From a virus: 64,000 bases of DNA. Where the stretch lies: positions 186,001-250,000 of the IMG/VR virus record IMGVR_UViG_3300033995_001164; one strand, 5' to 3'. Below are positions 27,028-59,920 of the stretch, piece after piece. The position numbers were made by a program, and so were the translations under genes. The notes under the pieces were generated by a model, which was given only the letters and a program-made list of their open reading frames with translations, was not told where the DNA came from and ran no database searches. The first letter of the stretch is position 1, and every line of letters starts with the position of its first letter.

Positions 27028-27408
27028 TTAAAGTTTTAATTTTTTTAATTCATCACGAATTTCAATTGACCGTTCAAAGTTATGGTCTTTAATTGATTGT
27101 TTTAATTCTTCTTCAAGTTTAGAGATAGATTCTTGATTAGTTTCCATTTTTCTGATTTGGTCTCTAATCTCAACCGCTTTCTCAAAGTCTTCATTTTCGA
27201 TTGCCAACTCAAGTTGTCGTTTTAAACCATTACTACCTTTAGGTGTTTTTGGTTCTGAACTTCTATAGAATGAAGTCACTTTTATCGTACCATCTTCAGA
27301 TACTCTTGTTTCTGATTTCCATTCCCCTAACTGAGAAGAATCAAACTGAGAGAACATATTATCAAATTCTCTCAAAATGTCATTAAAATTTTTTCTGTTT
27401 CCAAACAT
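27028..27408 (-). CDS. UVR-motif protein, McsA-like adaptor candidate
   Basis: 126 residues. Two UVR motifs at about 67-94 (RQLELAIENEDFEKAVEIRD) and 98-125 (KQSIKDHNFERSIEIRDELK). UVR motifs occur in UvrB, UvrC, ClpC and the ClpC partner McsA. The gene is divergent from a Clp ATPase gene 170 bases away that has a UVR-like segment of its own. The zinc fingers of McsA are absent. An adaptor or regulator of the phage Clp is inferred. Confidence 0.65.
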   Translation of the reverse strand: MFGNRKNFNDILREFDNMFSQFDSSQLGEWKSETRVSEDGTIKVTSFYRSSEPKTPKGSNGLKRQLELAIENEDFEKAVEIRDQIRKMETNQESISKLEEELKQSIKDHNFERSIEIRDELKKLKL

Positions 27409-27578
27409 AATTTTATTTTTTAATTCAAATTTATTTTATACCTTTGTATTATTCAAATAATATACCAAACCAAAAAATATGTCAATATGTCAGGTTAAAA
27501 AAAACTTACTGACAATTTGTCTAAAAATTAGGATAAGAATAAAATTTGATACACCTTTGTAAAATAAAATTAGAAACT

Positions 27579-29594
27579 ATGAACGACTTAATGGACGACA
27601 ACGACAAATCAGGGAACAAAGCACAAAAACAAGCTATGGATACAAACACACCTGTATTAGACAACTTCAGTAGAGATTTAAATAAACTAGCTGAGGCGGG
27701 TAAATTAGACCCGGTTATTGGTAGAGATGCCGAGATTTTGAGAATCGCACAAATCCTTTCTCGTAGAAAAAAGAATAACCCTATTATCATAGGTGAACCC
27801 GGATGTGGTAAAACCGCATTGGTTGAAGGTTTGGCTATGAAAATTGTGAGTGGAGAATGTCCAAGAAACTTAGTGGACAAAAGAATCGTGAACCTTGATT
27901 TAACTTCAGTTGTTGCTGGTACAAAGTATCGTGGACAATTTGAGGAAAGAATGAAAGTGATTATCGAGGAACTTAGTGCTAATCCAAATATCATTGTGTT
28001 TATCGATGAGATTCACACATTGGTTGGTTCCGGTAATTCTTCAGGTTCAATGGATGGTTCAAACATCTTCAAACCGGCACTTGCCCGTGGAGAGGTTCAA
28101 TGTATTGGTGCGACAACTCTTGATGAGTTCCGTAAGAACATTGAGAAAGACGGAGCCTTGGAAAGAAGATTCCAAAAAGTAATTGTGGAGCCATCCACAG
28201 TTGAAGAAACAATCGAAATCCTTAAGAATGTTCGTGATAAATACGAATCATACCACAAAGTGTTGTATAGTGACGAAGTTGTGGAAACTTGTGTTAAGTT
28301 GGCTGACCGTTACATCACCGACCGTGAGTTCCCGGATAAAGCATTTGACATCTTAGATGAGGTTGGTGCTCGTATGCAAACCGAGATTAAAGTTCCTGAT
28401 GTTATTGAGGAATTAAAAAAGAAAGCCGCTGAGATTAAGATTGAAAAAATGGAAGTGGTTAAAAAACAAAACTACGAACAAGCAGCACAACTTAGAGATA
28501 AGGAGAAAAAGTTATTGATTAAACTTGAGGCGGAAAAAGATAAGTTTGCAAAACAAATGGATTTGGAGAAACAAACTATTGTTCTTGAAACCGTATATCA
28601 AGTTGTGTCAAGTATGACTAAAATCCCTGTGAGTAAAATGGATGCTGATGATTCCAAAGCGTTGATGAATTTAGATAAATCAATCATGGGTAAAGTGATT
28701 GGTCAGGATGCTGCTGTTGTTAAGATTGCAAAATCAATCAAGAGAAACCGTTTGGGTATCAAAGACCCTAACAGACCTATTGGTTCATTTATTTTCTTAG
28801 GTTCAACCGGTGTTGGTAAAACTCACTTGGCCAAACAATTAGCTAAAGAGATGTTTGGAACAGAAGATTCACTTATCCGTGTGGATATGTCAGAATACCA
28901 AGAGAAACACACCATCTCTAAATTGGTTGGAGCACCTCCGGGATATGTTGGTTACGAAGAAGGAGGTTTATTAACTGAGAAAGTTAAAAACAAACCATAT
29001 TCTGTAATCTTATTTGATGAGGTTGAAAAAGCTCACAAAGATGTTTTCACGGTATTACTTCAAATATTAGATGATGGACACGTAACCGATAGTTTAGGTA
29101 GAAAGATTAACTTCAAGAATACCTTAATCATCCTTACATCTAACTTAGGTGTTAAGAAATTACAAGACTTCGGTACTGGTATTGGATTCTCTAATAACTC
29201 TTACGCCGACGAAGAAGCTAAGAAAGAAATCTTGATGAAAGAGATGAAGAATTTCTTTTCTCCTGAGTTCATTAACCGTATTGATGACACTATTGTCTTT
29301 AATTCATTAACTCCTGAAGATATCGATAAAATCACCGATATTGAGTTAAAGAAATTAATGACTCGTCTTGGTGAGATGAAATACACCGTAACCTACGATG
29401 ATGAGGTTGTTAAATACCTATCTAAAATTGGATACGATGAAGTATATGGTGCAAGACCATTGAAGAGAGCAATCCAAGACAAAATTGAGGATTTGTTATC
29501 CGAAGAAGTATTAACCGGTAAAATGGTTGAGGGTAAATCCTACCAAATCAAAATGAAGGGTGAGGACATCACAATTCAGAAAAAAGGAAAATAA
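27579..29594 (+). CDS. ClpC/ClpA-type AAA+ unfoldase without N-domain
   Basis: 671 residues from the ATG at 27579. First ATPase: GEPGCGKT (72-79) and IVFIDEIHTL. A short middle segment has a UVR-like stretch (NYEQAAQLRDKEKK). Second ATPase: GSTGVGKTH (about 408) and VILFDEVEKAH. GTGIGF at about 532-537 matches the [LIV]-G-F loop that docks onto ClpP. The usual N-terminal repeat domain is missing, so substrates may come by an adaptor. A ClpP is encoded at 59177. The composition is less AT-biased than in neighbours. Confidence 0.9.
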   Translation: MNDLMDDNDKSGNKAQKQAMDTNTPVLDNFSRDLNKLAEAGKLDPVIGRDAEILRIAQILSRRKKNNPIIIGEPGCGKTALVEGLAMKIVSGECPRNLVDKRIVNLDLTSVVAGTKYRGQFEERMKVIIEELSANPNIIVFIDEIHTLVGSGNSSGSMDGSNIFKPALARGEVQCIGATTLDEFRKNIEKDGALERRFQKVIVEPSTVEETIEILKNVRDKYESYHKVLYSDEVVETCVKLADRYITDREFPDKAFDILDEVGARMQTEIKVPDVIEELKKKAAEIKIEKMEVVKKQNYEQAAQLRDKEKKLLIKLEAEKDKFAKQMDLEKQTIVLETVYQVVSSMTKIPVSKMDADDSKALMNLDKSIMGKVIGQDAAVVKIAKSIKRNRLGIKDPNRPIGSFIFLGSTGVGKTHLAKQLAKEMFGTEDSLIRVDMSEYQEKHTISKLVGAPPGYVGYEEGGLLTEKVKNKPYSVILFDEVEKAHKDVFTVLLQILDDGHVTDSLGRKINFKNTLIILTSNLGVKKLQDFGTGIGFSNNSYADEEAKKEILMKEMKNFFSPEFINRIDDTIVFNSLTPEDIDKITDIELKKLMTRLGEMKYTVTYDDEVVKYLSKIGYDEVYGARPLKRAIQDKIEDLLSEEVLTGKMVEGKSYQIKMKGEDITIQKKGK

Positions 29595-29598
29595 TAAG

Positions 29599-29626
29599 AA
29601 AGGGGGATGAAAATCCCCTTTTTTTT
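29599..29626. terminator. Bidirectional terminator
   Basis: AGGGGGAT-GAAA-ATCCCCTT with T-run, between the Clp gene (+) and the 29633 gene (-). Confidence 0.75.
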
Positions 29627-29632
29627 ATATGG

Positions 29633-30025: not shown

Positions 30026-30868
30026 TTAGAAGAATCTGTGATTATATCTTGGAATCTCAACTACTTCTTTGTAGTGTAACTTATTCCCAAGTTTTTCAAT
30101 CATTTGTCTTCCCATTTCAATCCCTTTGAAAACATCCTCAATCACCACATATTCGTTTGGTGTGTGGTAATCGTAATACCCAATTGAAAAGTTGATACAA
30201 GAAAAACTAAATTTACTTCTCAACGCATAAACATCAGTATATGGATGAACCATGTATTGCATATCTTCGTTATGCATCCCTTCGGTTAATACTTGGTCAC
30301 AAACTTCAAAGAATTCTGACTCTCTATCAAATAAATCTTGACTGAAACATTTTTCGGTAATCATCCAGTTCTCCGGAGCGTCAAATTGAATTCCATAACC
30401 AACATTAGTGAAGAATTCAGGGTCAGCCTTTTTGGAACCGTGACATCCGGTTTCTTCAGATACAAAGAAAGTGGCTTTTAAATTTGGTAATTCTTTTAGT
30501 AATTTTAAACAAGCAAATACTCCACATTTATCATCACCACCGATTCCGGTTGGTAATCCATGTAAGTTGTAAGCTTTCAACGAATCTTTAATCTCACCTT
30601 GAGCATTAGGTAATTGTTCTTCATGAACTATTATATTGTCTAATCTGTGGACTGTGTCAGTATGTGCAATAACACAAGGGAAGTAAAAGTCCTCAGGAAG
30701 TGTTTCAAGTTCTTGTTTGGTTGCATAAACATTTTTGTGTTCATCAACATAATGTTCTATATTGTTTTCGGTCAACCAATTCTGTAAAAATTCAACCATT
30801 AGGTCTTCTTTATAAGTTACGGTTGGAACACTAAGAACTTCTTTTAGTAATAATATATCGTTTGTCAT
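30026..30868 (-). CDS. M20/M42-type metallopeptidase
   Basis: 280 residues. Metal-binding order of the family is intact: AHTDTVH (His69, Asp71), GIGGDDKCG (about 112), SEETGCHG (138-139), FDAPENW, and a late HTPNEYV His. Enzymes of this family remove residues from peptides. The small dimerisation domain appears reduced. It has its own promoter. It could finish degradation of peptides made by the phage ClpP; this is inferred from gene content. Confidence 0.8.
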   Translation of the reverse strand: MTNDILLLKEVLSVPTVTYKEDLMVEFLQNWLTENNIEHYVDEHKNVYATKQELETLPEDFYFPCVIAHTDTVHRLDNIIVHEEQLPNAQGEIKDSLKAYNLHGLPTGIGGDDKCGVFACLKLLKELPNLKATFFVSEETGCHGSKKADPEFFTNVGYGIQFDAPENWMITEKCFSQDLFDRESEFFEVCDQVLTEGMHNEDMQYMVHPYTDVYALRSKFSFSCINFSIGYYDYHTPNEYVVIEDVFKGIEMGRQMIEKLGNKLHYKEVVEIPRYNHRFF

Positions 30869-32056: not shown

Positions 32057-32087
32057 TTTGGAATTTCAATATTTATGTTTATCTTTG
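32057..32087 (+). promoter_or_regulatory. Promoter of the tmRNA gene
   Basis: TTTG, 19-base spacer, TATCTTTG; the mature tmRNA would start 15 bases after the box. Confidence 0.85.
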
Positions 32088-32101: not shown

Positions 32102-32511
32102 GGGGATGAAATGGAATTGACTGACATATCTACTTATTTAGGGCACGTAGTGAGAAGTTTCCTATCACTTAAATCTATGGATGACAAAATTATAAATGGC
32201 AACATTTTAAACAAAATGGCTCTAGTAGGTCTTGTACGTCAAGATGAGCTTGTGAACGTAGCGTAAGCAAACACACATTGGGGTCGACGGATATATGTAC
32301 CTTGCAACAGAAATATCTTAAGGTGTGATACCACCCGAAGAGTGTCAAGGTCTCGTTTGAGGGTCTACCTATTAAAGTGAACCTCCCACAGTTGTAGGTA
32401 ATGATGGAAAAATTAAAACCTTCTTATTTGTCAGTTGAGAATTAATTGAATAAACGTGTAGACCTAAACACTTAGGATGGACAACACCCGATTTCGAAAT
32501 CGGCATCTCCA
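32102..32511 (+). ncRNA. ssrA: Transfer-messenger RNA (tmRNA)
   Basis: About 410 bases. The 5' end GGGGATG pairs with the 3' CATCTCC, followed by discriminator A. GGAATTGAC near the start matches the tmRNA signature (E. coli GGATTCGAC). The T arm CCGAT-TTCGAA-ATCGG is at the 3' end. An internal frame at 32228-32266 after CTAGTA reads Gly-Leu-Val-Arg-Gln-Asp-Glu-Leu-Val-Asn-Val-Ala-stop, with the Gly resume codon typical of Bacteroidota. A GCT nine bases earlier in the same frame is an alternative resume codon. CCA is not encoded. It would free stalled ribosomes and tag their products. Confidence 0.9.
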
Positions 32512-32520
32512 CTTTAATAA

Positions 32521-32556
32521 AAAAAAAATCCATCATATGATGGATTTTTTTTTTAT
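32521..32556 (+). terminator. Terminator of the tmRNA gene
   Basis: AAAAAATCCATCAT-ATGATGGATTTTTT, strong stem with T-run. Confidence 0.9.
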
Positions 32557-32616
32557 TAATTTTCTAAAATCATATCATTATATCCATTTTTTTTATTTAT
32601 ATTTGCAAGATAAAAT

Positions 32617-47872: not shown

Positions 47873-47874
47873 TG

Positions 47875-47944: not shown

Positions 47945-47948
47945 ATTT

Positions 47949-48006: not shown

Positions 48007-48017
48007 TTCTATTTTAA

Positions 48018-48089: not shown

Positions 48090-48254
48090 AATAAATCACA
48101 CATCCATCAAGATTGGGATAATTAGAAGGGCTATTTATTTTCAAACTATTTCATTCCTCCCTAAAACTAACTTACTCAACAAACATAACACTTCTTGTAG
48201 TGTTACATTTTCTAACTTTAACGCTGTTTGTCTTTCTATGTGTAAATTTAATTT

Positions 48255-48641: not shown

Positions 48642-48647
48642 ATTTGT

Positions 48648-48800
48648 TTATTTAATATCTTCTCTAAAATATGACATCTCAACATTGTATAATTCACAAA
48701 TTCTTTCTGTGGACATTTTGGAGAATAAACTTCCCAAACAATGGATAAAATATCCATCAATAAACCACTTTAATCTTTGTTTTGCTTCGTATTCTGTCAT
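48648..48800 (-). CDS. Small hypothetical protein
   Basis: 50 residues, starting MTEYEAKQRLKWFIDGYF. ATG at 48800, one base after the previous gene's stop. Fits the operon 49044-48255. Confidence 0.5.
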   Translation of the reverse strand: MTEYEAKQRLKWFIDGYFIHCLGSLFSKMSTERICELYNVEMSYFREDIK

Positions 48801-48801
48801 C

Positions 48802-49044
48802 TTAATATCCTATTTCATCTTTAATCTTCCATTGTTCATCAATGGGGATTCTTTCAACCCTTTCAACCGGAACAAATCCGTCCAATCTTTTTTCTTTAAC
48901 ATCCTCAAAATGTTCAATGGTGTCCAAATAAAACCCGAACTGATATCGAATGTATTGGAACTTTTCACCATCCCAATATGCCATGTGGTTGTTTCTACAG
49001 AAACCATTATACCACCCTTCAACCATATCTTTTTTTAATATCAT
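48802..49044 (-). CDS. Small hypothetical protein
   Basis: 80 residues with Trp/Tyr-rich start and charged end. First gene of its group with a promoter about 50 bases upstream. Not recognised. Confidence 0.55.
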   Translation of the reverse strand: MILKKDMVEGWYNGFCRNNHMAYWDGEKFQYIRYQFGFYLDTIEHFEDVKEKRLDGFVPVERVERIPIDEQWKIKDEIGY

Positions 49045-49095
49045 AATTTCTATTTTTAATCCTCTTACACCAAGAGTTAATCTTTAATTTTTTTA

Positions 49096-49127
49096 CAAAG
49101 GTAGGAATAAATTTTTAACCAACCAAA
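49096..49127 (-). promoter_or_regulatory. Bacteroidota-type promoter
   Basis: Minus strand TTTG, 20-base spacer, TACCTTTG. Confidence 0.7.
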
Positions 49128-49173
49128 TTAAAAATTAGAAAATTATATAGGAAGTTTTACTTTACTTAAAATA

Positions 49174-49305
49174 TTATTTGAAACGTGAGTATAAACTTTC
49201 TAAGAAAGGTTTAACATGCGATAAATAATTATTTCCAGTTTTAGGGGAGTAGTTCAGATATATAAACTTTTCTTCACAAATCTTTATAATTTTTTGGTTT
49301 TTCAT
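49174..49305 (-). pseudogene. N-terminal fragment resembling a tyrosine recombinase
   Basis: 43 residues, with YLNYSPKTGNNYLSHVKPFL, which resembles the SAM-like core-binding domain of XerC/D-type and integron integrases. The catalytic domain is absent. It lies at one end of the attC-like array at 49340-50510. Called a remnant; it could also be an unrelated small gene. Confidence 0.4.
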
Positions 49306-49385
49306 AATATAACTTACTAATAATTAATGTTTTACACAATATTACATATATAACATAGTTATGTGTAATAAAATAAAAATTATGA

Positions 49386-49598
49386 TTATCCTATATCACA
49401 TTTGGTTATTAATCCTTTATCAATCTCCAAGTTTATTCTATCAAATCGTAAATCCATTGTGATTACATAATTATTAGAATCTTCTCTTGTTATTCTAACT
49501 TTATAATCATTTTCTTTACATAATTCTGTTCCTGATTCTTTATTCATTCCGATTAAAGATTCTAATAATTCATTACTTCCGTTTCTATTTCGTCCCAT
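49386..49598 (-). CDS. I78-like small protein
   Basis: 70 residues. The pattern KVRITREDSNNYVITMDLR and RINLEIDKGLITKCDIG resembles peptidase inhibitor I78 proteins, small beta-hairpin proteins. It is flanked by attC-like elements like a gene cassette. Function not proven. Confidence 0.55.
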   Translation of the reverse strand: MGRNRNGSNELLESLIGMNKESGTELCKENDYKVRITREDSNNYVITMDLRFDRINLEIDKGLITKCDIG

Positions 49599-49631
49599 AA
49601 TTTTAAATTTGTATAATTTTTATTTTACATA

Positions 49632-49687
49632 CACATAACAAATGATAAACAACATTAAAACGATTGTTTATCATCGGACGTTATAAA
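49632..49687 (-). repeat. attC-like element 1
   Basis: ACATAAC, AA, stem ATGATAAACA/TGTTTATCAT around loop ACATTAAAACGAT, CGGAC, GTTAT. Outer and inner inverted repeats as in integron attC sites. Confidence 0.5.
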
Positions 49688-49702
49688 ACATTAAAACGAT
49701 TT

Positions 49703-49832
49703 TATAACAAAGTATAAAAGAAATGCTCCAAAAGTTCGACATTGGAAATCCTCTGTTACGGAGTTGAACCGCATCTACCTTGCAAGATAGTTGTTACACA
49801 ACCGCACTTCTTTTATACTCAATCGTTATGTT
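49703..49832 (-). repeat. attC-like element 2 enclosing a tRNA-like sequence
   Basis: ATAAC, AAA, AGTATAAAAGAA/TTCTTTTATACT, TCAATC, GTTATGT. Inside, at about 49738-49815, is a tRNA-like fold with T arm TGCGG-TTCAACT-CCGTA and anticodon stem CTATC/GGTAG around TTGCAA (Cys or Ala), but no acceptor of its own. Confidence 0.45.
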
Positions 49833-49846
49833 TAATTTTAAGAAAT

Positions 49847-50116
49847 TTATTTGTTTTTTAATTTGTCTTGAAGTATTTTGTTTACATCAAATTTAGTCCA
49901 AGAAGTTTGTTCTTCAAGTGGTTTTCGTTCTGTTGGTGGCGTTGGTACATCATCAATAACCATATAGTGACTAAATGTTAAATGAGACAAACTTCTTCCC
50001 ATTTGTCCTTTCAATTTACTTGGAAACATATGACCATTTGTTCTATTTACCCACCAACAAAATAATTCTTCATTTGGTAAATCTTGTTCTGAATTTATCT
50101 CTATCCATTCTTTCAT
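49847..50116 (-). CDS. Small hypothetical protein (cassette gene)
   Basis: 89 residues from the ATG at 50116 (MKEWIEINSEQDLPNEELF); the longer frame to 50200 runs into attC-like element 3 and is rejected. Not recognised. Confidence 0.5.
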   Translation of the reverse strand: MKEWIEINSEQDLPNEELFCWWVNRTNGHMFPSKLKGQMGRSLSHLTFSHYMVIDDVPTPPTERKPLEEQTSWTKFDVNKILQDKLKNK

Positions 50117-50152
50117 ATAATATATTTTTAAGTTGTATAAATTTTTTAAAAC

Positions 50153-50212
50153 TAAACATAACAAAGTGTAAAAAACATTAAAACAATTTTTTACACCCAA
50201 CCGTTATGTGTA
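50153..50212 (-). repeat. attC-like element 3
   Basis: ACATAAC, AAA, stem GTGTAAAAA/TTTTTACAC around loop ACATTAAAACAAT, CCAACC, GTTATGT. Same plan as element 1 with a different but paired stem. Confidence 0.55.
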
Positions 50213-50226
50213 ATAAAAAACTAAAA

Positions 50227-50451
50227 TTAAACTACCTCAACTTTATACAGTGTTCTATTATCGAAGTTTTCTTTTGAAAACCCCTTTATTACATCATTAT
50301 TTTTGTGTGAAATTGTTTCAATGTCATCTATGTTGTTTTTGATGTCATTCAGTGTTTTACTCAATCTACTCCAGTAAATTTGTTCACACAAAAATAAACC
50401 AGTCCATTGTAGGTTTTTCAAAATAAAATCTGTTAATTTAGTTCGTTTCAT
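50227..50451 (-). CDS. Small hypothetical protein (cassette gene)
   Basis: 74 residues, helical, start MKRTKLTDFILKNLQWTG. Between two attC-like elements. Not recognised. Confidence 0.45.
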   Translation of the reverse strand: MKRTKLTDFILKNLQWTGLFLCEQIYWSRLSKTLNDIKNNIDDIETISHKNNDVIKGFSKENFDNRTLYKVEVV

Positions 50452-50517
50452 ATATTTAAAAGTTTAATTTTTTTACGTTTTTTACATACACATAACAAGG
50501 TGTATATGTAATAATTT

Positions 50518-50703
50518 TTACAAAGATACGATTATATTCCTACTCCGGAGTGTTTTTCTTAAAAGAGATAATCTTTTTCTATGATTGACATATTGGTCAC
50601 CATCATTAGCTTTATGTCCTTTAAAAATTGATTCAGTTATCTCACATTCCAATTTAATAATTTCACTTATTAGCTCTTCTGTTGTTAAATCACTCTCAAT
50701 CAT
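50518..50703 (-). CDS. Small hypothetical protein
   Basis: 61 residues, helical, acidic then basic. Its start overlaps the upstream stop by 4 bases, so it is co-translated with the 50700 gene. Confidence 0.5.
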   Translation of the reverse strand: MIESDLTTEELISEIIKLECEITESIFKGHKANDGDQYVNHRKRLSLLRKTLRSRNIIVSL

Positions 50704-51023
50704 ATTTTCTCAAATTCGTCTTCAAATCCGTACCATTCCTCACCTTCTTCATCTTCGTACCAATATGTGTATGCCCGGTCGTATTTATGCCAATCAATTC
50801 TAGTCAATTCAACCTCATTTCCACTATTTTTATCTCTAACCACATTACCAACTTGAAATGCTTGTGGTACGTAATCATTGATTGTTTCACTTTTAATAAT
50901 CAATTCTCCAACACTTTTAACCTCATCAGTTTGGATATTGGTATAGTTTCCTTCGGATGATAATTCCCACCCATTGTCATACAACCAATTCGTAAAATCT
51001 AAAATTTCGTTTTCTAATAACAT
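50700..51023 (-). CDS. Hypothetical protein
   Basis: 107 residues, with a beta domain and an acidic Tyr/Trp-rich end (AYTYWYEDEEGEEWYG). Own promoter. Not recognised. Confidence 0.55.
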   Translation of the reverse strand: MLLENEILDFTNWLYDNGWELSSEGNYTNIQTDEVKSVGELIIKSETINDYVPQAFQVGNVVRDKNSGNEVELTRIDWHKYDRAYTYWYEDEEGEEWYGFEDEFEKI

Positions 51024-51045
51024 AATATATCAGTTTTTGTGGGGA

Positions 51046-51076
51046 CAAAGATACTACGATTTTTTAATCTACCAAA
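51046..51076 (-). promoter_or_regulatory. Bacteroidota-type promoter
   Basis: Minus strand TTTG, 19-base spacer, TATCTTTG. Confidence 0.8.
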
Positions 51077-51339
51077 TTTTTATCTTTATTTTCCAAATAT
51101 TTTCTTGACTCACTACACATTTTTTCCAAAACCTCTAATGATTTGAGATTCTTAAAGATGATTGTTAGAATTTCCTCACTTTCACCACCTAACACATCAA
51201 CACCAACCTCATTCGGTTCTGACAATGAATCAATCGTAATGAATGGTAATTTAACACTGTTCTCAATTCCCATTCCAAATGATAATTCACCATCTCCGGC
51301 CACAATAACTCTCTCACGTTGTTTTTTTACTTCTGACAT
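51064..51339 (-). CDS. Hypothetical protein
   Basis: 91 residues. VIVAGDGELSFGMGIENSVKLP is an unusual Gly-rich start. It follows the transporter-like gene by 5 bases. Not recognised. Confidence 0.5.
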   Translation of the reverse strand: MSEVKKQRERVIVAGDGELSFGMGIENSVKLPFITIDSLSEPNEVGVDVLGGESEEILTIIFKNLKSLEVLEKMCSESRKYLENKDKNLVD

Positions 51340-51344
51340 AATAT

Positions 51345-52187
51345 TTAATTTTCTGTTTCTAATCTTTTAATAACGTCCTTAATATTAATATATGATGTTA
51401 AAATTGTTGGTAACCCAAGAAGAGCATTACAAAAATCAAACATATATCTATAAGTTGAGAATACACTTCCCACACTCACCTTATTGTACATTACGTAGTA
51501 TGTTAATAATGCTGTCACACTTCCATAAACAATACCTTGAATCCAAATTGAAAACTTAGCATCAATACTTGACATTTTAAGTGATAAGAACTGACCTCTC
51601 TTTAATAAATTATTAATTGAGGCAATTTTTCTTGTACCAATCACATCAGTTTGTTCTTCAGACAAATCATTATATTTACTTGTAATGTTGGCAATTTTTG
51701 GTGAATAATATGCTGTTGCCCCCAAGATTAATATTGTTGTAATAATCAAGAATCCAACAATCGGTAAACTTACCATTGCCAAGAAGTAGATGGCGCCAAC
51801 CAAACCAATAATCGTCTGTATTACCAATAACATATCTCGTTCAAAAAACAGGACAATATAGTGCATTAAGGTTAATCTTCCGTTGATTTTTGTTGTCTCA
51901 ACATCATTATCAAGTTGATTACTTGTTTCAATAGAGGCAAATCTCCTATAAATCCCGGAGAATACTTTAGTGTCATAAATTTTACTGATGTACCCGAAGA
52001 ACATAATTGATGCAAATGTAGAAACCAAATACCATATGTATGAATAATCTTTGGTAATTAAGTGGTCAATTGCATTACCCAAAACTTTGGGATACATAAC
52101 CATCAATATCGCATTAATCATGAACAATGAATATGAAAATATTATTGATTTCCAATTCTCACTAAACATTATTTTTAACTTATCCAT
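51345..52187 (-). CDS. Orphan ABC-exporter transmembrane domain
   Basis: 280 residues with about six membrane helices, typical of type I ABC exporter permeases (MYPKVLGNAIDHLI; YRRFASIETSNQLDNDVETTKI; SMSSIDAKFSIWIQGIVYGSV region). No nucleotide-binding domain follows. It has its own promoter. Unusual in a phage; it might modify a host transporter or be an inert remnant. Confidence 0.7.
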   Translation of the reverse strand: MDKLKIMFSENWKSIIFSYSLFMINAILMVMYPKVLGNAIDHLITKDYSYIWYLVSTFASIMFFGYISKIYDTKVFSGIYRRFASIETSNQLDNDVETTKINGRLTLMHYIVLFFERDMLLVIQTIIGLVGAIYFLAMVSLPIVGFLIITTILILGATAYYSPKIANITSKYNDLSEEQTDVIGTRKIASINNLLKRGQFLSLKMSSIDAKFSIWIQGIVYGSVTALLTYYVMYNKVSVGSVFSTYRYMFDFCNALLGLPTILTSYINIKDVIKRLETEN

Positions 52188-52209
52188 ATCTTATCTTTTT
52201 TGATTTTGA

Positions 52210-52240
52210 CAAAGATACAACTAAAATTTAATCTACCAAA
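52210..52240 (-). promoter_or_regulatory. Promoter of the transporter-like gene
   Basis: Minus strand TTTG, 19-base spacer, TATCTTTG. Confidence 0.8.
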
Positions 52241-52256
52241 TAATTATGAATTTTCT

Positions 52257-52484
52257 TTAAATTGTTTTCCAAGTCTTTTTAATGGTTTTTGAAAAGTTAA
52301 CAATTTTTTGACAGTCTTCACAATTTACATTTTCATTTGTTTTTACAAATTGACCACAAGTCATAAAATCCCCATCAAGTGTTAAACCACATAAAGTGTA
52401 ATCACTTCCAACCGGTGATGTAAAATGAATTTCATTTTTGAATATATCATCACCATTACCAATGAATTTTATTTTATTTGACAT
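52257..52484 (-). CDS. Small Cys-containing protein
   Basis: 75 residues; CGL, CGQ and CEDCQ may bind a metal. Overlaps the next upstream stop by one base. Not recognised. Confidence 0.5.
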   Translation of the reverse strand: MSNKIKFIGNGDDIFKNEIHFTSPVGSDYTLCGLTLDGDFMTCGQFVKTNENVNCEDCQKIVNFSKTIKKTWKTI

Positions 52485-52660
52485 TATTCCTCACTTTTTT
52501 TAGGTCCCTTGAAATCACAATCAAGACAAACGTATCTCTGTTCTTCAATGCTCCAATCCATATTATAATGTTGACATTCCTTAGGTTTTAAATATTTTTG
52601 TTGTTTCTTGTATTCCGACACCACTTTAAGTGCTGTTTTATACTGACTTTCTGTTATCAT
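52484..52660 (-). CDS. Small zinc-binding protein
   Basis: 58 residues from the ATG at 52660, two bases after the HNH stop. CQHYNMDW and YVCLDCDFKG form a possible zinc site. Confidence 0.5.
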   Translation of the reverse strand: MITESQYKTALKVVSEYKKQQKYLKPKECQHYNMDWSIEEQRYVCLDCDFKGPKKSEE

Positions 52661-52662
52661 AG

Positions 52663-53172
52663 TTAAAAGAATAAGTAGGGTCTCCATTCATCAGGGATTT
52701 CGTGATGAACTTGTTTCATTAACATCAAGTAATGAGGTCTCCTTGGTTGAGGAATTTCCTTACCGTATTCCTCCAACGTCAAATTGGACTTCTCACCGTT
52801 ACACCTTCTACAAGCGGTAACTAAGTTGTCCCAACTGTCTTTCCCCCCCTTAGATTGGGGTATTACGTGGTCCAAAGTTAGCGTCTTTCTATTATTGTCT
52901 CCACAATATACACACTCAAAGTTATCTCTACGATAAACATTCTCTCTACTTAAAGGAACTTTTTGAATTATCTGATTCACATATTTGTAGACCCGAATAA
53001 TTGAAGGTTTTTTGATATCCAATTCAGGATTCACTAATTTGAATGATTCCGGATGTTCATTTATAACGTCAGCATTACCCTTATAAGAAATGACGAAAGC
53101 CCTCTCTGTGGAAATAATACTCCTCGCCATAAAACTTGAATCCAAAACCAAAGTTTTTTGGTAACTACTCAC
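52663..53172 (-). CDS. HNH endonuclease
   Basis: 169 residues. VYRRDNFECVYCG, LTLDHVIPQSKGG and CRRCNGEKSN give a complete HNH with two Cys pairs. The N-terminus TLVLDSSFMARSIISTERAF is typical of a group found in bacteria and phages, not only homing enzymes. Confidence 0.88.
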   Translation of the reverse strand: MSSYQKTLVLDSSFMARSIISTERAFVISYKGNADVINEHPESFKLVNPELDIKKPSIIRVYKYVNQIIQKVPLSRENVYRRDNFECVYCGDNNRKTLTLDHVIPQSKGGKDSWDNLVTACRRCNGEKSNLTLEEYGKEIPQPRRPHYLMLMKQVHHEIPDEWRPYLFF

Positions 53173-53206
53173 GACTATTAATTTTTAATTAAACATTTTT
53201 TTTTTG

Positions 53207-53277
53207 TTCCCCCAAATGGTACTGGCCCATTTTCCCGATATTAAAAGTATCGTGCTTCACCTTAAAGCTTTAGGGGA
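53207..53277 (-). tRNA. tRNA-Lys (TTT), unusual T-loop
   Basis: Acceptor TCCCCTA/TGGGGGA, D arm GCTT/AAGC, anticodon stem CGATA/TATCG, loop CTTTTAA. T arm AATGG/CCATT with loop GCCAGTA instead of TTCRA. Confidence 0.8.
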
Positions 53278-53305
53278 TTATTGAGCTCATTTTGTTTTGT
53301 TATTC

Positions 53306-53353
53306 GGCTCAAAATATAAGTAATTTGAGATTAATAATCAAACTTTATGAGCC
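53306..53353 (-). ncRNA. Stem-loop element of 48 bases
   Basis: GGCTCA/TGAGCC ends with inner TTTGA/TCAAA stem, between tRNA-Lys and tRNA-Ile. Confidence 0.4.
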
Positions 53354-53360
53354 ACATTTG

Positions 53361-53433
53361 TCGGTCAGGTGGGTATCGAACCCACTACCTTTCGCGTATC
53401 AGGCGAATGCTCTACCGATTGAGCTACTGACCG
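53361..53433 (-). tRNA. tRNA-Ile (GAT)
   Basis: Acceptor CGGTCAG/CTGACCG, loop CTGATAC, T-loop TTCGATA. Confidence 0.93.
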
Positions 53434-53438
53434 AATTG

Positions 53439-53510
53439 TTAGGGTGGAGAGGGTCGAACTCTCCGCTTCCTGCCTCCAATGCAGGCTTCTCACCCCGAGA
53501 ATACACCCTA
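53439..53510 (-). tRNA. tRNA-Pro (TGG)
   Basis: Acceptor TAGGGTG/CACCCTA, loop ATTGGAG, T-loop TTCGACC. Confidence 0.9.
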
Positions 53511-53524
53511 ATATATTTTTTTTG

Positions 53525-53609
53525 TAGAGAATATGGGATTCGAACCCATACCCCCATTTAAGGAGGGACACATTAGCAGTGTGTTCTGATACCGTTACAG
53601 CAATTCTCT
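53525..53609 (-). tRNA. tRNA-Ser (GCT)
   Basis: Class II, 85 bases. Acceptor AGAGAAT/ATTCTCT, loop CTGCTAA, T-loop TTCGAAT. Its 5' end overlaps the end of the HNH gene by 15 bases. Confidence 0.92.
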
Positions 53610-54389
53610 TTTTGAATAATTAACAATAAATTCTGATTTACCTGTTTCAGTTATTTCTTCGTGTATTTCACAATGACAATTACTACAAACCAAAACACAT
53701 TTATCAACCTCTTTTTTCATTTTTTCTTCTGAATAATTTTTACCCCCTATAGTAAAATCTTTTTCATCAGGATTGATATGGTGAAATTGTAAGGCGTTCA
53801 TAGATTTACTATAACCACATCTCTGACAACAACCACCTTTATACTCAACTAATCTTTTTTTTCTATTTTTACGACATCTAACTACGTGTTCAACAGAACT
53901 TTTCCTACGTTCAATCGCGGTTTGAGTTTTGACCTCAACAATACTACTAATAATCTTTCTACCAACTCCTAATATTTCACTAACTTTTCGGATGCTACCA
54001 ATTTTGTCATATAATTCTTTTATTTTTTTTATAAAATCCTCATCTTTAAATCTTAATTCATTTTTATTTTTATTAAGATTAAAAATTTTACAAATTCTGA
54101 TTACTTTATCTTGACTAATATTAACTTGGGGAAAAATACTTTTATATGTTTCACCATTTTGTTTTAAATTAATAATTTTATCAATTACCGATTTGTCAAT
54201 TAGTTTTAAAAAATCTTCATCATTTATTGTTGTTGTTTTATAATTTTCGTGAACACCTCCCATACCATTTTTATTAATATGATATGAAATAACACCGACG
54301 CTACAACCCAATATATTTTTAATATTTGTAATACTATATCCTTCTAACCTCAATTTTAATATTGAATCTTTTAATTTTTCTGTTTCCAT
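53595..54389 (-). CDS. HNH homing-type endonuclease
   Basis: 264 residues. Three HTH-like repeats, then RLVEYKGGCCQRCGY, ALQFHHINPDEKDF and CVLVCSNCHCEIHEEI, a full HNH with zinc pairs. Its last codons lie within tRNA-Ser, so the two are physically linked, which fits a selfish gene parked beside a tRNA. Confidence 0.87.
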   Translation of the reverse strand: METEKLKDSILKLRLEGYSITNIKNILGCSVGVISYHINKNGMGGVHENYKTTTINDEDFLKLIDKSVIDKIINLKQNGETYKSIFPQVNISQDKVIRICKIFNLNKNKNELRFKDEDFIKKIKELYDKIGSIRKVSEILGVGRKIISSIVEVKTQTAIERRKSSVEHVVRCRKNRKKRLVEYKGGCCQRCGYSKSMNALQFHHINPDEKDFTIGGKNYSEEKMKKEVDKCVLVCSNCHCEIHEEITETGKSEFIVNYSKRELL

Positions 54390-54449
54390 TTACTTAATTT
54401 GTTTATTAATAAATATATCAAAAATATTGAAAAGTTCAAGTTTTTTTTG

Positions 54450-54522
54450 TGTCCCCAAGAGGATTCGAACCCCTATTCTATCTGTCGTAAAGATAAGTCC
54501 TTTCCAGTTGAACGATGGAGAC
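54450..54522 (-). tRNA. tRNA-Arg (ACG)
   Basis: Acceptor GTCTCCA/TGGGGAC, loop TTACGAC, T-loop TTCGAAT. Confidence 0.92.
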
Positions 54523-54579
54523 AATTTGATGTCTTTCCATCAGTCATCCCTATTATTTGGTAAGGGTGGAACATCCTTG

Positions 54580-54722
54580 TGGTCAGGACAGGTCTCGAAC
54601 CTGTACGATTGAAAAGACCAATTTTACTCGGTTCTTCGGGATGGTCAACATATTTAATGTGATGTCTCACGGCCCGATTAATCAATCACCCATTACGCGT
54701 CTACCAATTCCGCCACCTGACC
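54580..54722 (-). tRNA. Leu-type tRNA with an insertion of about 57 bases
   Basis: Acceptor GGTCAGG/CCTGACC, D arm GCGGAATTGGTAGACGC as in Leu tRNAs, T arm ACAGG/CCTGT with TTCGAGA. 143 bases instead of about 86; the extra sequence lies in the anticodon to variable region. Anticodon not resolved. Confidence 0.6.
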
Positions 54723-54724
54723 AA

Positions 54725-54827
54725 TTTGAGGTTGAGAATTCCTCTGTGTCATAGAGAACTTATACTCTAGTTTTTAGTACCCCTCATCTCACAACGGTTT
54801 GCGTACCGTATCGGGAATAACACATTT
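54725..54827 (-). ncRNA. Duplicated RNA element, copy 1
   Basis: Shares both ends with the copy at 54968: AAATGTGTTATTCCCG at the 5' end and GAGGAATTCTCAACCTCAA at the 3' end. Confidence 0.5.
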
Positions 54828-54829
54828 CG

Positions 54830-54967
54830 AATTAAAGGTAGGACTCGAACCTACGACCTGATTTCCTTTTCCACTTAGTTCGGTATTGGATGTGACTCCG
54901 TCCCTTATTCGTTGTTTTTCTCTTTCGAGTTAGGTATGTCTGTTCTAACCAACTGAACTACTTTAAT
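54830..54967 (-). tRNA. tRNA with an insertion of about 65 bases
   Basis: Acceptor ATTAAAG/CTTTAAT, D arm GTTC/GAAC, T arm GTAGG/CCTAC with TTCGAGT. 138 bases. The insertion in the anticodon region contains CTC-GAAA-GAG and other small hairpins. Anticodon not resolved. Confidence 0.6.
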
Positions 54968-55074
54968 TTTGAGGTTGAGAACTCCTCGTGTTGTGCAAAT
55001 ATAGACATAAATCCTTTAAAATTTATAATCTCACCCGACTATTCCATTCCCCTCCCACCGGGAACAACACATTT
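54968..55074 (-). ncRNA. Duplicated RNA element, copy 2
   Basis: AAATGTGTTGTTCCCGGT at the 5' end, GTGAGAT inside and GAGGAGTTCTCAACCTCAA at the 3' end, matching copy 1. Confidence 0.5.
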
Positions 55075-55224
55075 ACCATTACTGATAGTATCTTTATGTA
55101 AATTAGAGATATTCTATTCCAGACTTACCTGGACTTCTGTATTATATTTCAGAAACTTTTAAGGTTTCACCTCTATCTGATTGTCCCAGATTAATTTACA
55201 AAGATACTTAATATTTACCAATTT
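55075..55224 (-). other. Spacer without clear gene
   Basis: A TCCAG-ACTTAC-CTGGA hairpin is the only feature seen. Confidence 0.4.
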
Positions 55225-55428
55225 TTATTTCCATTGAGTTTTTCGGTTATACTTCCAAGTTTTGTGTTCTCTATATTTGTGAGAGAACTGACCTTTTCTG
55301 TAATGAACACCCTCGTCCCAATATGGTGGGTATTCAAACTTTAACCAAATCAATCTATAATCTTTTGAACAAGTCGCCTTGTTCAATTTCATTCTGTTTG
55401 TGTTTACACTCATAATCTCTGAGTCCAT
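55225..55428 (-). CDS. Small basic protein
   Basis: 67 residues, Lys/Arg/Tyr/Trp-rich (GQFSHKYREHKTWKYNRKTQ). Nucleic-acid binding is possible from charge only. Lies between tRNAs. Confidence 0.45.
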   Translation of the reverse strand: MDSEIMSVNTNRMKLNKATCSKDYRLIWLKFEYPPYWDEGVHYRKGQFSHKYREHKTWKYNRKTQWK

Positions 55429-55483
55429 TGTTTAGTGGACCTCAAAGATTGTCTAATACCTTTTTCATAATATTTTAATTAAG

Positions 55484-55556
55484 TGTGAAAGGTGGGACTC
55501 GAACCCACAATCTCCTGGACCACAACCAGACGCTTTACCAATTCAGCTACAATCAC
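55484..55556 (-). tRNA. tRNA-His (GTG)
   Basis: Anticodon arm TCTGG-TTGTGGT-CCAGG, T arm GTGGG/CCCAC with TTCGAGT. Two mismatches in the acceptor GTGATTG/CTTTCAC. Confidence 0.85.
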
Positions 55557-55572
55557 CATGTACTTTATTTTG

Positions 55573-55646
55573 CTCTCCAGCTAGGACTTGAACCTAGGAC
55601 TCTCGTATTAACAGTACGATGCTCTAACCAACTGAGCTACTGAAGA
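55573..55646 (-). tRNA. tRNA-Asn (GTT)
   Basis: Acceptor TCTTCAG/CTGGAGA, loop CTGTTAA, discriminator G, T-loop TTCAAGT. Confidence 0.92.
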
Positions 55647-55652
55647 ATTTTT

Positions 55653-55703
55653 ACCTTACTTCCCCGGCTTAACGGACCGAGTGCCATATAGGAGGTGTAA
55701 GGT
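55653..55703 (-). ncRNA. Stem-loop element of 51 bases
   Basis: ACCTTAC/GTAAGGT closing stem, between the two Asn tRNAs. Confidence 0.4.
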
Positions 55704-55710
55704 GACCTCG

Positions 55711-55782
55711 AGGACCGGGGGAATTTCGAAATCCCGACCCGCAGACTAACAACCTGCCGCTCTTCCTCTGAGCTACCAATCC
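55711..55782 (-). tRNA. Second tRNA-Asn (GTT)
   Basis: Acceptor GGATTGG/CCGGTCC, stem GCAGG/TCTGC, loop TTGTTAG, T-loop TTCGAAA. Confidence 0.85.
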
Positions 55783-55788
55783 GATTTT

Positions 55789-55847
55789 GACCACTATGTT
55801 ATTTTGCGAACGTATGAAGCTCGTATCATTATTAAGTCATAGTAGTC
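55789..55847 (-). ncRNA. Stem-loop element of 59 bases
   Basis: GACCACTATG pairs with CATAGTAGTC (one mismatch), between tRNA-Asn and tRNA-Phe. A 14-base palindrome GGTAAGGCCTTACC follows at 55893. Confidence 0.4.
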
Positions 55848-55932
55848 CAAGGCGTTACGCATCCATCTGTAACTTTACTTTTCTTGAGTCCCGGTAAGGC
55901 CTTACCAACTCTGGGAACGATTACCTCGTTTG

Positions 55933-56005
55933 TGTGTCCTACAGGAATCGAACCTGTTCCTTTCGCTCTTCAGGCGGACGTACGCACCAGCTATACGAAA
56001 GACAC
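55933..56005 (-). tRNA. tRNA-Phe (GAA)
   Basis: Acceptor GTGTCTT/AGGACAC, loop CTGAAGA, T-loop TTCGATT. Confidence 0.9.
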
Positions 56006-56164
56006 AATTATAATAATGTTGGAGTACCCGTCTCGCTCCAATCTTAAGTGCTTAATCGTAGTTTTACGAGGCCCTCGGCACATTCCCTTTTCAGGGGGGT
56101 GATGATTTCTTTGACCTATCCTGAATTGTCGACATCCGATGGATAGAGAAAACCATTATTATAG

Positions 56165-56245
56165 TGGAAAATAGTGGACTCGAACCACTCCCGTGAGGAC
56201 CTGATTTACAGTCAGGGTGCCGTATCCGAACGACTTTTATTTTCC
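56165..56245 (-). tRNA. tRNA-Tyr (GTA)
   Basis: Class II, 81 bases. Acceptor GGAAAAT/ATTTTCC, loop CTGTAAA, T-loop TTCGAGT. Confidence 0.92.
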
Positions 56246-56250
56246 TTTTG

Positions 56251-56321
56251 TACCTCGTGATGGTTACGCTCCACCGCCATTTGTATGTAAAACAAATACG
56301 CTCCTATTACGCCAACGAGGT
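56251..56321 (-). tRNA. tRNA-Val (TAC), unusual T-loop
   Basis: Acceptor ACCTCGT/ACGAGGT, stem TTTGT/ACAAA, loop TTTACAT, T arm GGTGG/CCATC with loop AGCGTAA. Confidence 0.78.
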
Positions 56322-56327
56322 AAATTG

Positions 56328-56399
56328 TACCGATGGGTGGGATTGAACCACCGACACCTTCCGTATGAAAGAAGTGCTCTACCACTGAGCTACATCAGT
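56328..56399 (-). tRNA. tRNA with CAT anticodon (Met or Ile2)
   Basis: Acceptor ACTGATG/CATCGGT, loop TTCATAC, T-loop TTCAATC. Confidence 0.9.
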
Positions 56400-56404
56400 A
56401 TTGT

Positions 56405-56443
56405 GGTGGACATAGGCTCATCACCTACTCGTGGGTTTCCACC
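56405..56443 (-). ncRNA. Stem-loop element of 39 bases
   Basis: GGTGGA/TCCACC ends, inner TAGG-TGATGAG-CCTA hairpin. Confidence 0.4.
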
Positions 56444-56453
56444 GAACCCCTTG

Positions 56454-56525
56454 TTACCCCTAATGGAATCGAACCACTCCCGCATGGACCAAAACCATGT
56501 GTACTAACCGATATACGAAGGGGCA
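56454..56525 (-). tRNA. tRNA-Gln (TTG)
   Basis: Acceptor TGCCCCT/AGGGGTA, loop TTTTGGT, T-loop TTCGATT. Confidence 0.92.
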
Positions 56526-56534
56526 AAATATTTT

Positions 56535-56622
56535 TTAGTTAAAGAACGGTTACCACAATTACGTTCGCCTCGGCTTCACTCCGAACATTCTTTTTTGGGT
56601 GTGGATTAAACTATTTAACTAA
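56535..56622 (-). ncRNA. Structured RNA with 9-bp terminal inverted repeat
   Basis: TTAGTTAAA/TTTAACTAA ends; inner GTTCG/CGAAC stem around a CGG/CCG hairpin. 88 bases. Confidence 0.45.
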
Positions 56623-56626
56623 CCCG

Positions 56627-56709
56627 CGGAGGAGACAGGATTCGAACCTGCAACCCGTTTCCGAGCGACGGTTTTCAAGACCGCTCGACAACCAACTGTC
56701 CACTCCTCC
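56627..56709 (-). tRNA. tRNA-Ser (TGA)
   Basis: Class II, 83 bases. Acceptor GGAGGAG/CTCCTCC, loop CTTGAAA, discriminator G, T-loop TTCGAAT. First tRNA after the promoter. Confidence 0.93.
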
Positions 56710-58761: not shown

Positions 58762-58796
58762 CCAAAATTTATTAGATTTAAAAAAAAACTTATTAT

Positions 58797-59120
58797 ATGG
58801 AAAATTACACAAACCCTGAGACGGGAGAAACAACACAAGACGTTCAAGATTTACTTAATGCATCATTAATTTTTGCAAGAGCATTGGGTCTTATTTTTAA
58901 AGAGGGTGAGGGAATTGTTGTTGATATTAAAGGAGACATTAAATTAAATGACGGTTCTAAAAAAGTAATTGTTTTTGGTCATAACGACCAAATTCACATA
59001 TACAAATGTGAAGAAGATTTAGAAGAAGGAACGGCTGTTAGTATGAATAATGATGAAGTTGACCCATCAAATATTGATGTTGTTGATTCAGAAATTATAT
59101 CTCCAACTGAAGAAAATTAA
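58797..59120 (+). CDS. Hypothetical acidic protein
   Basis: 107 residues, beta-rich with an acidic end. Precedes the ClpP gene, which has its own promoter. Not recognised. Confidence 0.55.
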   Translation: MENYTNPETGETTQDVQDLLNASLIFARALGLIFKEGEGIVVDIKGDIKLNDGSKKVIVFGHNDQIHIYKCEEDLEEGTAVSMNNDEVDPSNIDVVDSEIISPTEEN

Positions 59121-59128
59121 AATTATAT

Positions 59129-59160
59129 TTTGGTGAATCAATTATTTTTATATATCTTTG
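59129..59160 (+). promoter_or_regulatory. Promoter of the clpP gene
   Basis: TTTG, 20-base spacer, TATCTTTG; start codon at 59177. Confidence 0.75.
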
Positions 59161-59176
59161 TCAAAAATTAAAACAT

Positions 59177-59920
59177 ATGAACGTAGGACAAGAATTTCAA
59201 AATTATTACACAAAACATTTAGGTAAACCATCTTTGGATTTACATAACTTCAACAATCACATTCAAAACTCGATGACTCCATATATTTTAGAGGAAAGAG
59301 AGATGAGAGTAACTCAAATGGATATTTTTTCTCGTTTGATGATGGATAGAATTCTTTGGGCTTCGGGTCCGGTTGACGATAGAATGGGTGATATTATACA
59401 ATCACAACTTATCTTCTTAGATAATTTGGATAAGAAAAAAGATATCAATTTATATCTACAAACTCCGGGTGGTAGTGTATTAAGTGGTTTAGGTATTAGA
59501 GATACTATGAACTTCATCAATGCCGATGTTGCAACCACAAATATTGGTATGTGTGCGTCCATGGGTTCGGTATTACTATCTTCAGGGGCAAAAGGTAAAA
59601 GGGAATCTTTAATTTTTTCAAAGGTTATGACTCACATGGTGTCTCACGGAACACAAGGGAATGTTCAAGACACTAGAATTGGTCAACTTGAAGCTGAAAA
59701 ATATAACTACTTGTTATTTAAAATATTAGCTGAGAATTGTGGTAAAACATTTGAACAAATGTTAGAATCATCAAGAAATGACAAATGGTTTAATTCAGAT
59801 GAAGCGTTAGAGTTTGGATTAATTGATAAAATTATCGGTGTTGAGAAAAATCAATCAATGACTGATATGATGATTGGTTTTGATGAGTATTATGAGAAAG
59901 AAATTCTTAAAAGAAAATAA
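59177..59920 (+). CDS. clpP: ClpP-type serine protease
   Basis: 247 residues, with about 30 extra at the N-terminus compared with E. coli ClpP. The triad is intact: Ser128 in GMCASMGS, His153 in VMTHMVSHG, Asp202 in NDKWF. The spacings (25 and 49) equal those of E. coli Ser97-His122-Asp171. NLYLQTPGGS is the oxyanion region. It should form barrels that receive substrates from an unfoldase; the Clp ATPase at 27579 carries a matching IGF loop. Confidence 0.92.
   Translation: MNVGQEFQNYYTKHLGKPSLDLHNFNNHIQNSMTPYILEEREMRVTQMDIFSRLMMDRILWASGPVDDRMGDIIQSQLIFLDNLDKKKDINLYLQTPGGSVLSGLGIRDTMNFINADVATTNIGMCASMGSVLLSSGAKGKRESLIFSKVMTHMVSHGTQGNVQDTRIGQLEAEKYNYLLFKILAENCGKTFEQMLESSRNDKWFNSDEALEFGLIDKIIGVEKNQSMTDMMIGFDEYYEKEILKRK

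Follow-up and report, generated by a model that had tools for sequence, protein, structure and literature searches.

A tmRNA gene linked to Clp protease genes in a giant phage: a putative phage-owned trans-translation and degradation pathway

The window (the whole stretch of 64,000 nt that was analysed) belongs to an IMG/VR record of 309 kb, that of a giant phage whose hosts are Bacteroidota-type bacteria. The gene set picked out in a preliminary description, i.e., a tmRNA, an N-domain-less Clp ATPase (identified here as ClpC-type), ClpP, a protein with two UVR motifs and an M20/M42-type peptidase, is real, and the particulars given there also hold: the ATPase lacks the N-domain and retains an IGF loop, the UVR protein is divergent from it, and the catalytic triad of ClpP has the E. 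coli spacing. That description includes neither the tag sequence nor smpB, which is found at another place of the genome. An array of 24 tRNAs (41695..56709, minus strand; Rfam gathering score) is situated between the tmRNA and clpP.

The ATPase gene (27579..29594, plus strand; phrog_4871, 795 bits) encodes a ClpC-like double AAA+ unfoldase of 671 aa, with two AAA+ domains, a middle domain that itself contains a UVR motif, and the IGF loop at residues 535-537. ClpC is the best relative in the PDB (742 bits), and since the alignment starts only at ClpC residue 144, the protein is devoid of the N-domain; the stretch ahead of D1 mostly comprises 30-70 residues in phage ATPases vs 180-240 in those of hosts. 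An I/V/L-G-F loop for docking to ClpP is found in 103 of 104 phage ATPases, in which both Walker A/B pairs as well as the pore loops are conserved. The exception, LR756501, still has an N-terminal region as large as an N-domain and, alone among 36 records, lacks ClpP. ClpB ranked first for the ATPase in the NCBIfam search; with an IGF loop present and ClpC matching best in the PDB, a ClpB-type disaggregase was set aside. The position of F436 in Staphylococcus aureus ClpC is occupied by Y299 in the window (Y in 98 and F in 5 of 104 phage ATPases), such that an aromatic residue is kept in all 103 phage ATPases that have a middle domain. S. aureus ClpC without its N-domain binds ClpP, ssrA being read by the central pore; with the exchange F436A it degrades GFP-ssrA well, and with F436 retained it forms inactive rods with ClpP (PMC12583610). 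Given that the phage ATPases keep this aromatic, a further activator seems to be needed.

Divergently from the ATPase, as its neighbour on the minus strand (27028..27408), lies the gene of a protein of 126 aa with two UVR hairpins (Pfam UVR, 54 bits, in two stretches). Its profile matches in the PDB are the UVR part of McsA, the middle domain of ClpC and the UVR part of UvrB. The protein is free of cysteine and therefore lacks the zinc fingers of McsA, for which reason an identification as McsA was rejected. Of 79 contigs that could be tested, 37 have it next to the ATPase, i.e., about half of the relatives, and it was thus also rejected as a constant part of the gene set. The middle domain of the ATPase exhibits no standout difference between phages with and without the UVR protein, and the structure model of the latter is of low confidence (pLDDT 65.8). 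We regard it as a candidate for a protein that regulates the ATPase or serves as its adaptor.

The predicted single-domain M20/M42-type metallopeptidase (30026..30868, minus strand) matches phrog_4191 with 109 bits and Pfam M20 with 24.8 bits, and its M20-type metal ligands (H69, D71, D112, E138, E139, D163, H235) are all invariant in 40 relatives. The structure model (pLDDT 86.6) finds PepT as the best match in the PDB, followed by M42. With 280 aa the protein is devoid of the second (lid/dimerisation) domain, and long gaps interrupt its alignments with the PDB matches, which have 305-416 aa. Its gene is near-universal beside the ATPase; since its PHROG family occurs in other phages, too, its place in a pathway is a guess, and it could trim Clp products.

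The tmRNA gene (ssrA; 32102..32514, plus strand) does not encode the CCA tail. It reaches 50.6 bits with Rfam RF00023, above the gathering score of 47, and is thus genuine, as had been proposed; the tmRNAs of relatives score up to 112 bits. ARAGORN did not detect the tmRNA of the window, which we ascribe to the long tag and the shortened T-arm. In a comparison of 30 clade members, compensatory changes at 34 of the 40 pairs back the fold, the conserved paired domain is present, and the acceptor pair G3-U70, an identity element for AlaRS, is GU in all 30. Upstream, a Bacteroidota-type promoter-like site was read from the sequence (32058..32087, plus strand; TTG, 19 nt, TATCTTTG); TAnnTTTG precedes 79 of 95 clade tmRNAs, compared with 9.5% in shuffled upstream sequences. 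An inverted repeat with A/T runs, AAAAAAAAATCCATCATATGATGGATTTTTTTTT, which looks terminator-like, follows directly after the tmRNA (32518..32557).

The tag reading frame within the tmRNA (32198..32266, plus strand) reads GNILNKMALVGLVRQDELVNVA and then stop, and a homologous frame exists in 71 loci. The tag, which would be added at the C-terminus, is hydrophobic and comprises 22 residues in the window and 21-22 across the clade. It is conserved as a peptide: among 39 variants, pN/pS is 0.55 in frame vs 1.09 and 1.43 in the shifted frames, with G11 invariant and K6 and L12 nearly so. Its end is mostly V/T/A-x-A (a V-rich ..VxA), without LAA or MAA, whereas host-type tags have 9-10 aa and end in ..LAA/..MAA in all 25 Bacteroidota genomes checked. 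In a second phage group the tag is also long but of another sequence, GNDFVVSENFLTEAACSFAGELAVA or a variant of it.

The smpB gene of the same genome (record 23555-23968; PF01668, 161 bits) encodes a full-length protein with the C-terminal tail, ending in KKIHDKKNSIKERDIDRDIKREINR. Elsewhere, smpB is located near the tmRNA and the ATPase (G010), near the ATPase (LR756504), or around 2-3 kb from a ClpP paralogue (G012, G017, LR756502); it was undetected in many relatives, most records being fragments. LR745206 and LR756502 (phages of 634-642 kb) presumably belong to the set of Al-Shayeb et al. 2020.

Concerning ClpP, the predicted peptidase subunit (59177..59920, plus strand) matches PF00574 (CLP_protease) with 171 bits, and PRK14514 is its best NCBIfam model. 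The residues of the triad S128/H153/D202 are spaced by 25 and 49 positions, exactly as in E. coli, and Ser-His-Asp is invariant in 63 phage ClpPs. Within the hydrophobic docking pocket, F49, Y62, F82 and L114 are kept in the protein of the window and Y60, I90 and F112 are changed. The genome contains a separate S77-type prohead protease (14700..15416, minus strand; PF03420, 80 bits, at record positions 200832-201305, i.e., 14832-15305 of the window), which makes a role of ClpP in capsid maturation unlikely; as ClpP is not the sole candidate for a capsid protease, this assignment was set aside.

In all 63 related contigs that extend far enough, the ATPase is followed downstream by the tmRNA, which is on the same strand at a distance of 1.9-5.7 kb (63 of 63), and in the second phage group it lies 116-691 nt downstream of clpP. 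Five divergent-clade contigs offer 32-59 kb of sequence downstream of the ATPase, and a search for clpP in its vicinity was negative there; some relatives possess clpP without the ATPase. The expected co-occurrence of the genes in relatives is largely confirmed for the tmRNA and the Clp genes, but not for the UVR protein with its 37 of 79 contigs. With a tmRNA whose tag is long and unlike that of hosts, an SmpB and both Clp subunits of its own, and with relatives that keep the tmRNA next to Clp genes, the phage may possess a private route for tagging and destroying proteins in its host.

We lean towards the view that the phage owns a trans-translation system coupled to its own Clp protease. 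The sequence itself shows the genes and their linkage, the tag frame and the selection on it, the RNA fold, the ClpP triad and the docking loop of the ATPase. The core of the system, the tmRNA, SmpB, the N-domain-less ClpC and ClpP, is best explained by trans-translation followed by degradation, both in the possession of the phage, with the UVR protein and the peptidase as weaker, optional members; the rescue and degradation route suggested by the preliminary description is thus retained for genes that the phage owns and that co-occur in relatives, and loosened for these two. Host AlaRS would alanylate the phage tmRNA via G3-U70, and phage or host SmpB would carry it into stalled ribosomes, where the phage-specific tag of 22 residues would be added in place of the 9-residue ..LAA/..MAA tag of the host. 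The phage ClpC-like ATPase would then thread the tagged chain into ClpP, bound via the IGF loop, where it would be cut, with loss of the N-terminal regulatory domain rendering the ATPase independent of N-domain adaptors. Possible further steps are a control of the ATPase by the UVR protein, acting on the UVR-type middle domain of the former, and a trimming of the peptides by the metallopeptidase. In this scheme, the phage ATPase and the phage ClpP are presumably partners, and the tag would serve as a degron for the ATPase; in the absence of an LAA end, recognition by the ClpC pore is not a given. A match between tag and phage Clp, as had been proposed, is suggested by circumstantial evidence (a long, clade-specific tag unlike those of hosts, and a tmRNA linked to the ATPase or to clpP), but in a partial Mantel test of tag vs ATPase given a neighbour gene, r was only 0.06 (p 0.035), no better than for the neighbour gene, such that no tight co-evolution of tag and ATPase was detected.

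For the coupled pathway we counted the real and constrained tmRNA, the phage's own SmpB, the conserved tag, the linkage, the docking loop and the S. aureus ClpC precedent; counted against it were the tag without LAA, the weak Mantel result, the F436-type aromatic, the partly conserved ClpP pocket, the clpP-less stretches in the five divergent contigs and the relatives with undetected smpB. That the pathway would be fully orthogonal, with a private degron ignored by host proteases and read only by the phage ClpC-ClpP, and with the UVR protein activating the ATPase by releasing middle-domain contacts, is a possibility which we entertain only tentatively.

Alternatively, the tmRNA might merely free ribosomes with a tag hidden from host proteases, while the phage Clp has another job, e.g., the removal of misfolded proteins or of proteins of the host, without the tag having to act as a Clp degron. 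The missing LAA/MAA end and tag variation that tracks the ATPase no better than a neighbour gene would agree with this, and the long Mesoplasma florum tag, which escapes most E. coli proteases (PMC9382460), provides a precedent; however, the tmRNA is tightly linked to Clp genes in two different arrangements, and a tag serving avoidance only need not keep specific residues such as G11, K6 and L12, so that we consider this unlikely. Still less probable is that host proteases (ClpXP, ClpCP or Lon) read the tag, with the phage parts raising capacity or swapping subunits: phage and host ATPases share around 59% identity and the docking loop type (VGF/IGF), which makes subunit mixing conceivable, and clpP occurs without the ATPase in some relatives, but the tag is unlike that of the host and the phages encode ATPase and ClpP themselves. 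Finally, it was already disfavoured and is very improbable that there is no pathway and that shared ancestry has placed a disaggregase of the ClpB kind, a ClpP for capsid maturation and a tmRNA unrelated to them near each other, since, despite the frequency of ClpP-like head proteases, the NCBIfam ranking and a within-clade synteny partly due to ancestry, the IGF loop is present in 103 of 104 ATPases, ClpC is the best PDB match, the S77 prohead protease is separate, and a second, independent clpP-tmRNA arrangement exists.

If the coupled pathway is true, a virus would, with a private tag and a private protease, take over protein quality control besides translation; the locus would offer an orthogonal pair of degron and protease from nature and a natural setting for testing the regulation of N-domain-less ClpC, and the conserved tag is a direct and cheap experimental handle. 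Reports on tmRNA in phages and reports on Clp genes in phages already exist; a limited literature search found no paper joining the two. tmRNA and SmpB are known from huge phages (Al-Shayeb et al. 2020, PMC7162821), and a word search of the main text of that paper returned no mention of Clp or protease, so that this main text contains neither a tag comparison nor a Clp link. Several Clp proteins within one phage are described for the jumbo phages Atu_ph07 (ClpX, ClpA, ClpB and ClpS, without tmRNA) and AP-J-162, for which a tmRNA is listed as well; the passages concerned describe no tag and do not tie a tmRNA to Clp (PMC6102473, PMC11242549).

Among known systems, ClpC/McsA resembles the phage proteins in that the phage ATPase is ClpC-like and UVR motifs occur in McsA and in the middle domain of ClpC, whereas the phage ATPase lacks the N-domain and the phage UVR protein the cysteines of the McsA zinc fingers. 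In Mesoplasma/Mycoplasma, a long ssrA tag is read by Lon (Gur and Sauer 2008, as cited in PMC9382460); a lineage-specific, longer tag likewise goes together with an altered protease, which is Lon in cells lacking ClpXP and, in the viral case, presumably ClpP with a ClpC devoid of the N-domain. The bacterial tmRNA-SmpB system with ClpXP/ClpAP is shared in the tmRNA fold, G3-U70, the stop codon and the SmpB partner, and the resume codon of the phage is Gly, as in Bacteroidota; the differences are the tag, with 21-22 aa and a V-rich ..VxA end in the phage vs 9-10 aa and ..LAA/..MAA in bacteria, and the fact that the system is here phage-encoded and linked to Clp genes.

The Clp ATPase (27579-29594, plus strand; 671 aa) comprises both AAA+ domains and the middle domain. 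As the preliminary description had it, the protein lacks the N-domain and carries the IGF loop, located at residues 535-537; the ClpP triad (gene at 59177-59920, plus strand) is intact and shows the E. coli spacing, as also stated there. Of 104 distinct phage ATPases, 103 carry the ClpP-docking I/V/L-G-F loop. The sole exception, from the 735 kb phage LR756501 (contig L204), has MTD in the loop position and retains 182 residues ahead of the first AAA+ domain, i.e., an N-terminus of N-domain size; this is also the only one of 36 related records without a ClpP match. This joint absence is a single case, but it points the way one would predict for a loop with a role in ClpP docking. Second ClpP-like genes in LR756504, Lak-C1 (MK250029) and Lak-B5 (MK250024) contain in-frame TGA or TAA, perhaps reflecting recoding.

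Concerning co-occurrence, ClpP was found in 35, the ATPase in 31, a tmRNA above the cut-off in 23 and SmpB in 12 of the 36 records; since many of these were picked via ClpP, sets picked by the ATPase or the UVR protein give fairer figures. ClpP is present in 12 of 13 such records (the match in LR756508 being weak), and clpP lies downstream of the ATPase in 9 of 14 smaller ATPase-picked contigs with at least 29 kb of downstream sequence; the five in which it was not found there are all divergent-clade fragments. In every one of the 63 contigs with enough sequence, the tmRNA is encoded on the ATPase strand, 1.9-5.7 kb downstream of that gene, and in most long records ClpP follows about 18-30 kb further on, past the tRNA array. 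The peptidase is an almost constant companion of the ATPase, and the UVR protein is found with it in 37 of 79 contigs. The proposed co-occurrence of the five genes in relatives largely holds. As a genetic unit, the core pathway has good support; the UVR protein and the peptidase may be accessories to it. SmpB adjoins the tmRNA, close to the ATPase, in the related record G010 and is close to the ATPase in LR756504; in G012, G017 and LR756502, some 2-3 kb separate it from a ClpP paralogue. In a second phage group (L158, L159, L162-L165), a gap of 116-691 nt separates clpP from a tmRNA directly behind it, which encodes a different tag (25-26 aa, e.g., GNDFVVSENFLTEAACSFAGELAVA); no ATPase was detected in these mostly short contigs.

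The window tmRNA (32102-32514, plus strand) was detected by Rfam and not called by ARAGORN. In a comparison of 30 members of the clade, compensatory changes occur at 34 of the 40 predicted pairs, and G3-U70 never varies. The T-arm (32480-32514) is shorter by one base, a feature shared with L013 and L038, and the gene does not include the CCA end. SmpB with its C-terminal tail is encoded outside the window, at 23555-23968 of the source record (L387, 2550-3050); on the scale of this IMG/VR virus record, which has 309,177 bases and of which the window is bases 186001-250000, some 194 kb separate it from the tmRNA. Within the tRNA array (41695-56709, minus strand), an Rfam match at 54830-54967 (minus strand), missed by ARAGORN, spreads across 138 bases, twice the usual length, so that the tRNA possibly contains an insert or an intron; an ARAGORN tRNA at 43240-43316 (minus strand) was called with a four-base anticodon loop (gtaa) and without type assignment.

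The tag frame (32198-32266) encodes GNILNKMALVGLVRQDELVNVA; relatives encode, e.g., GNTFAKMATLGLTREASVVAA and GNVLDKMATIGLIRENASVVA. The clade's 39 distinct peptides, of 21-22 residues, all have G at position 11, and K6 and L12 each occur in 38 of them. The pN/pS ratio is 0.55 in-frame versus 1.09 and 1.43 in two shifted frames, the latter values resting on few stop-free pairs. All tags of 25 Bacteroidota genomes have 9-10 residues with a LAA or MAA end. The phage tag is thus a peptide under selection, differing from Bacteroidota tags. Bacteroidota ClpC proteins (56-61% identity) are the nearest cellular relatives of the ATPase among the best 80 hits, the nearest NCBIfam model to ClpP is PRK14514, a model for Bacteroidetes, and 79 of 95 tmRNA genes have the promoter form of Bacteroidota, TAnnTTTG (9.5% expected). 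This makes Bacteroidota the probable host group.

The UVR protein (27028-27408, minus strand; 126 aa) and the M20/M42-type peptidase (30026-30868, minus strand) fit their initial description. The former has two UVR hairpins of the kind present in McsA, in UvrB and in the middle domain of ClpC; the latter has a complete metal site and a structural model resembling PepT and M42 aminopeptidases. Two more small UVR-motif proteins are encoded outside the window (14388-14477 and 42254-42310 of the source record). Beside the ATPase, two small minus-strand genes are kept in nearly all relatives, at 26436-26678 (80 aa, possibly a KTSC domain) and 25693-26424 (nucleotidyltransferase-like, phrog_36119).

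In S. aureus ClpC, the central pore reads ssrA and N-domain deletion permits ClpP binding; by itself this deletion yields inactive rods with ClpP via middle-domain contacts, and together with F436A it yields good GFP-ssrA degradation (PMC12583610). The phage ATPase is a ClpC naturally without the N-domain, and an aromatic residue occupies the F436 position in all 103 phage ATPases having a middle domain. It may therefore dock on ClpP adaptor-free and yet depend on some factor that disrupts the contacts between middle domains. The UVR protein, which shares this type of hairpin with the middle domain, is a candidate for that factor, but about half of the relatives lack it, which weakens the case. 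A match between the phage tag, as a putative degron, and the phage protease is plausible.

Phage tmRNA and SmpB (huge phages; PMC7162821) and phage Clp proteins (jumbo phages; PMC7824862, PMC6102473, PMC11242549) are known separately. Our search, mostly outside subscription journals, found no published account of a clade-wide private tag, tmRNA-Clp linkage or N-domain loss. A longer, altered tag paired with an altered protease is described for Mesoplasma (PMC9382460).
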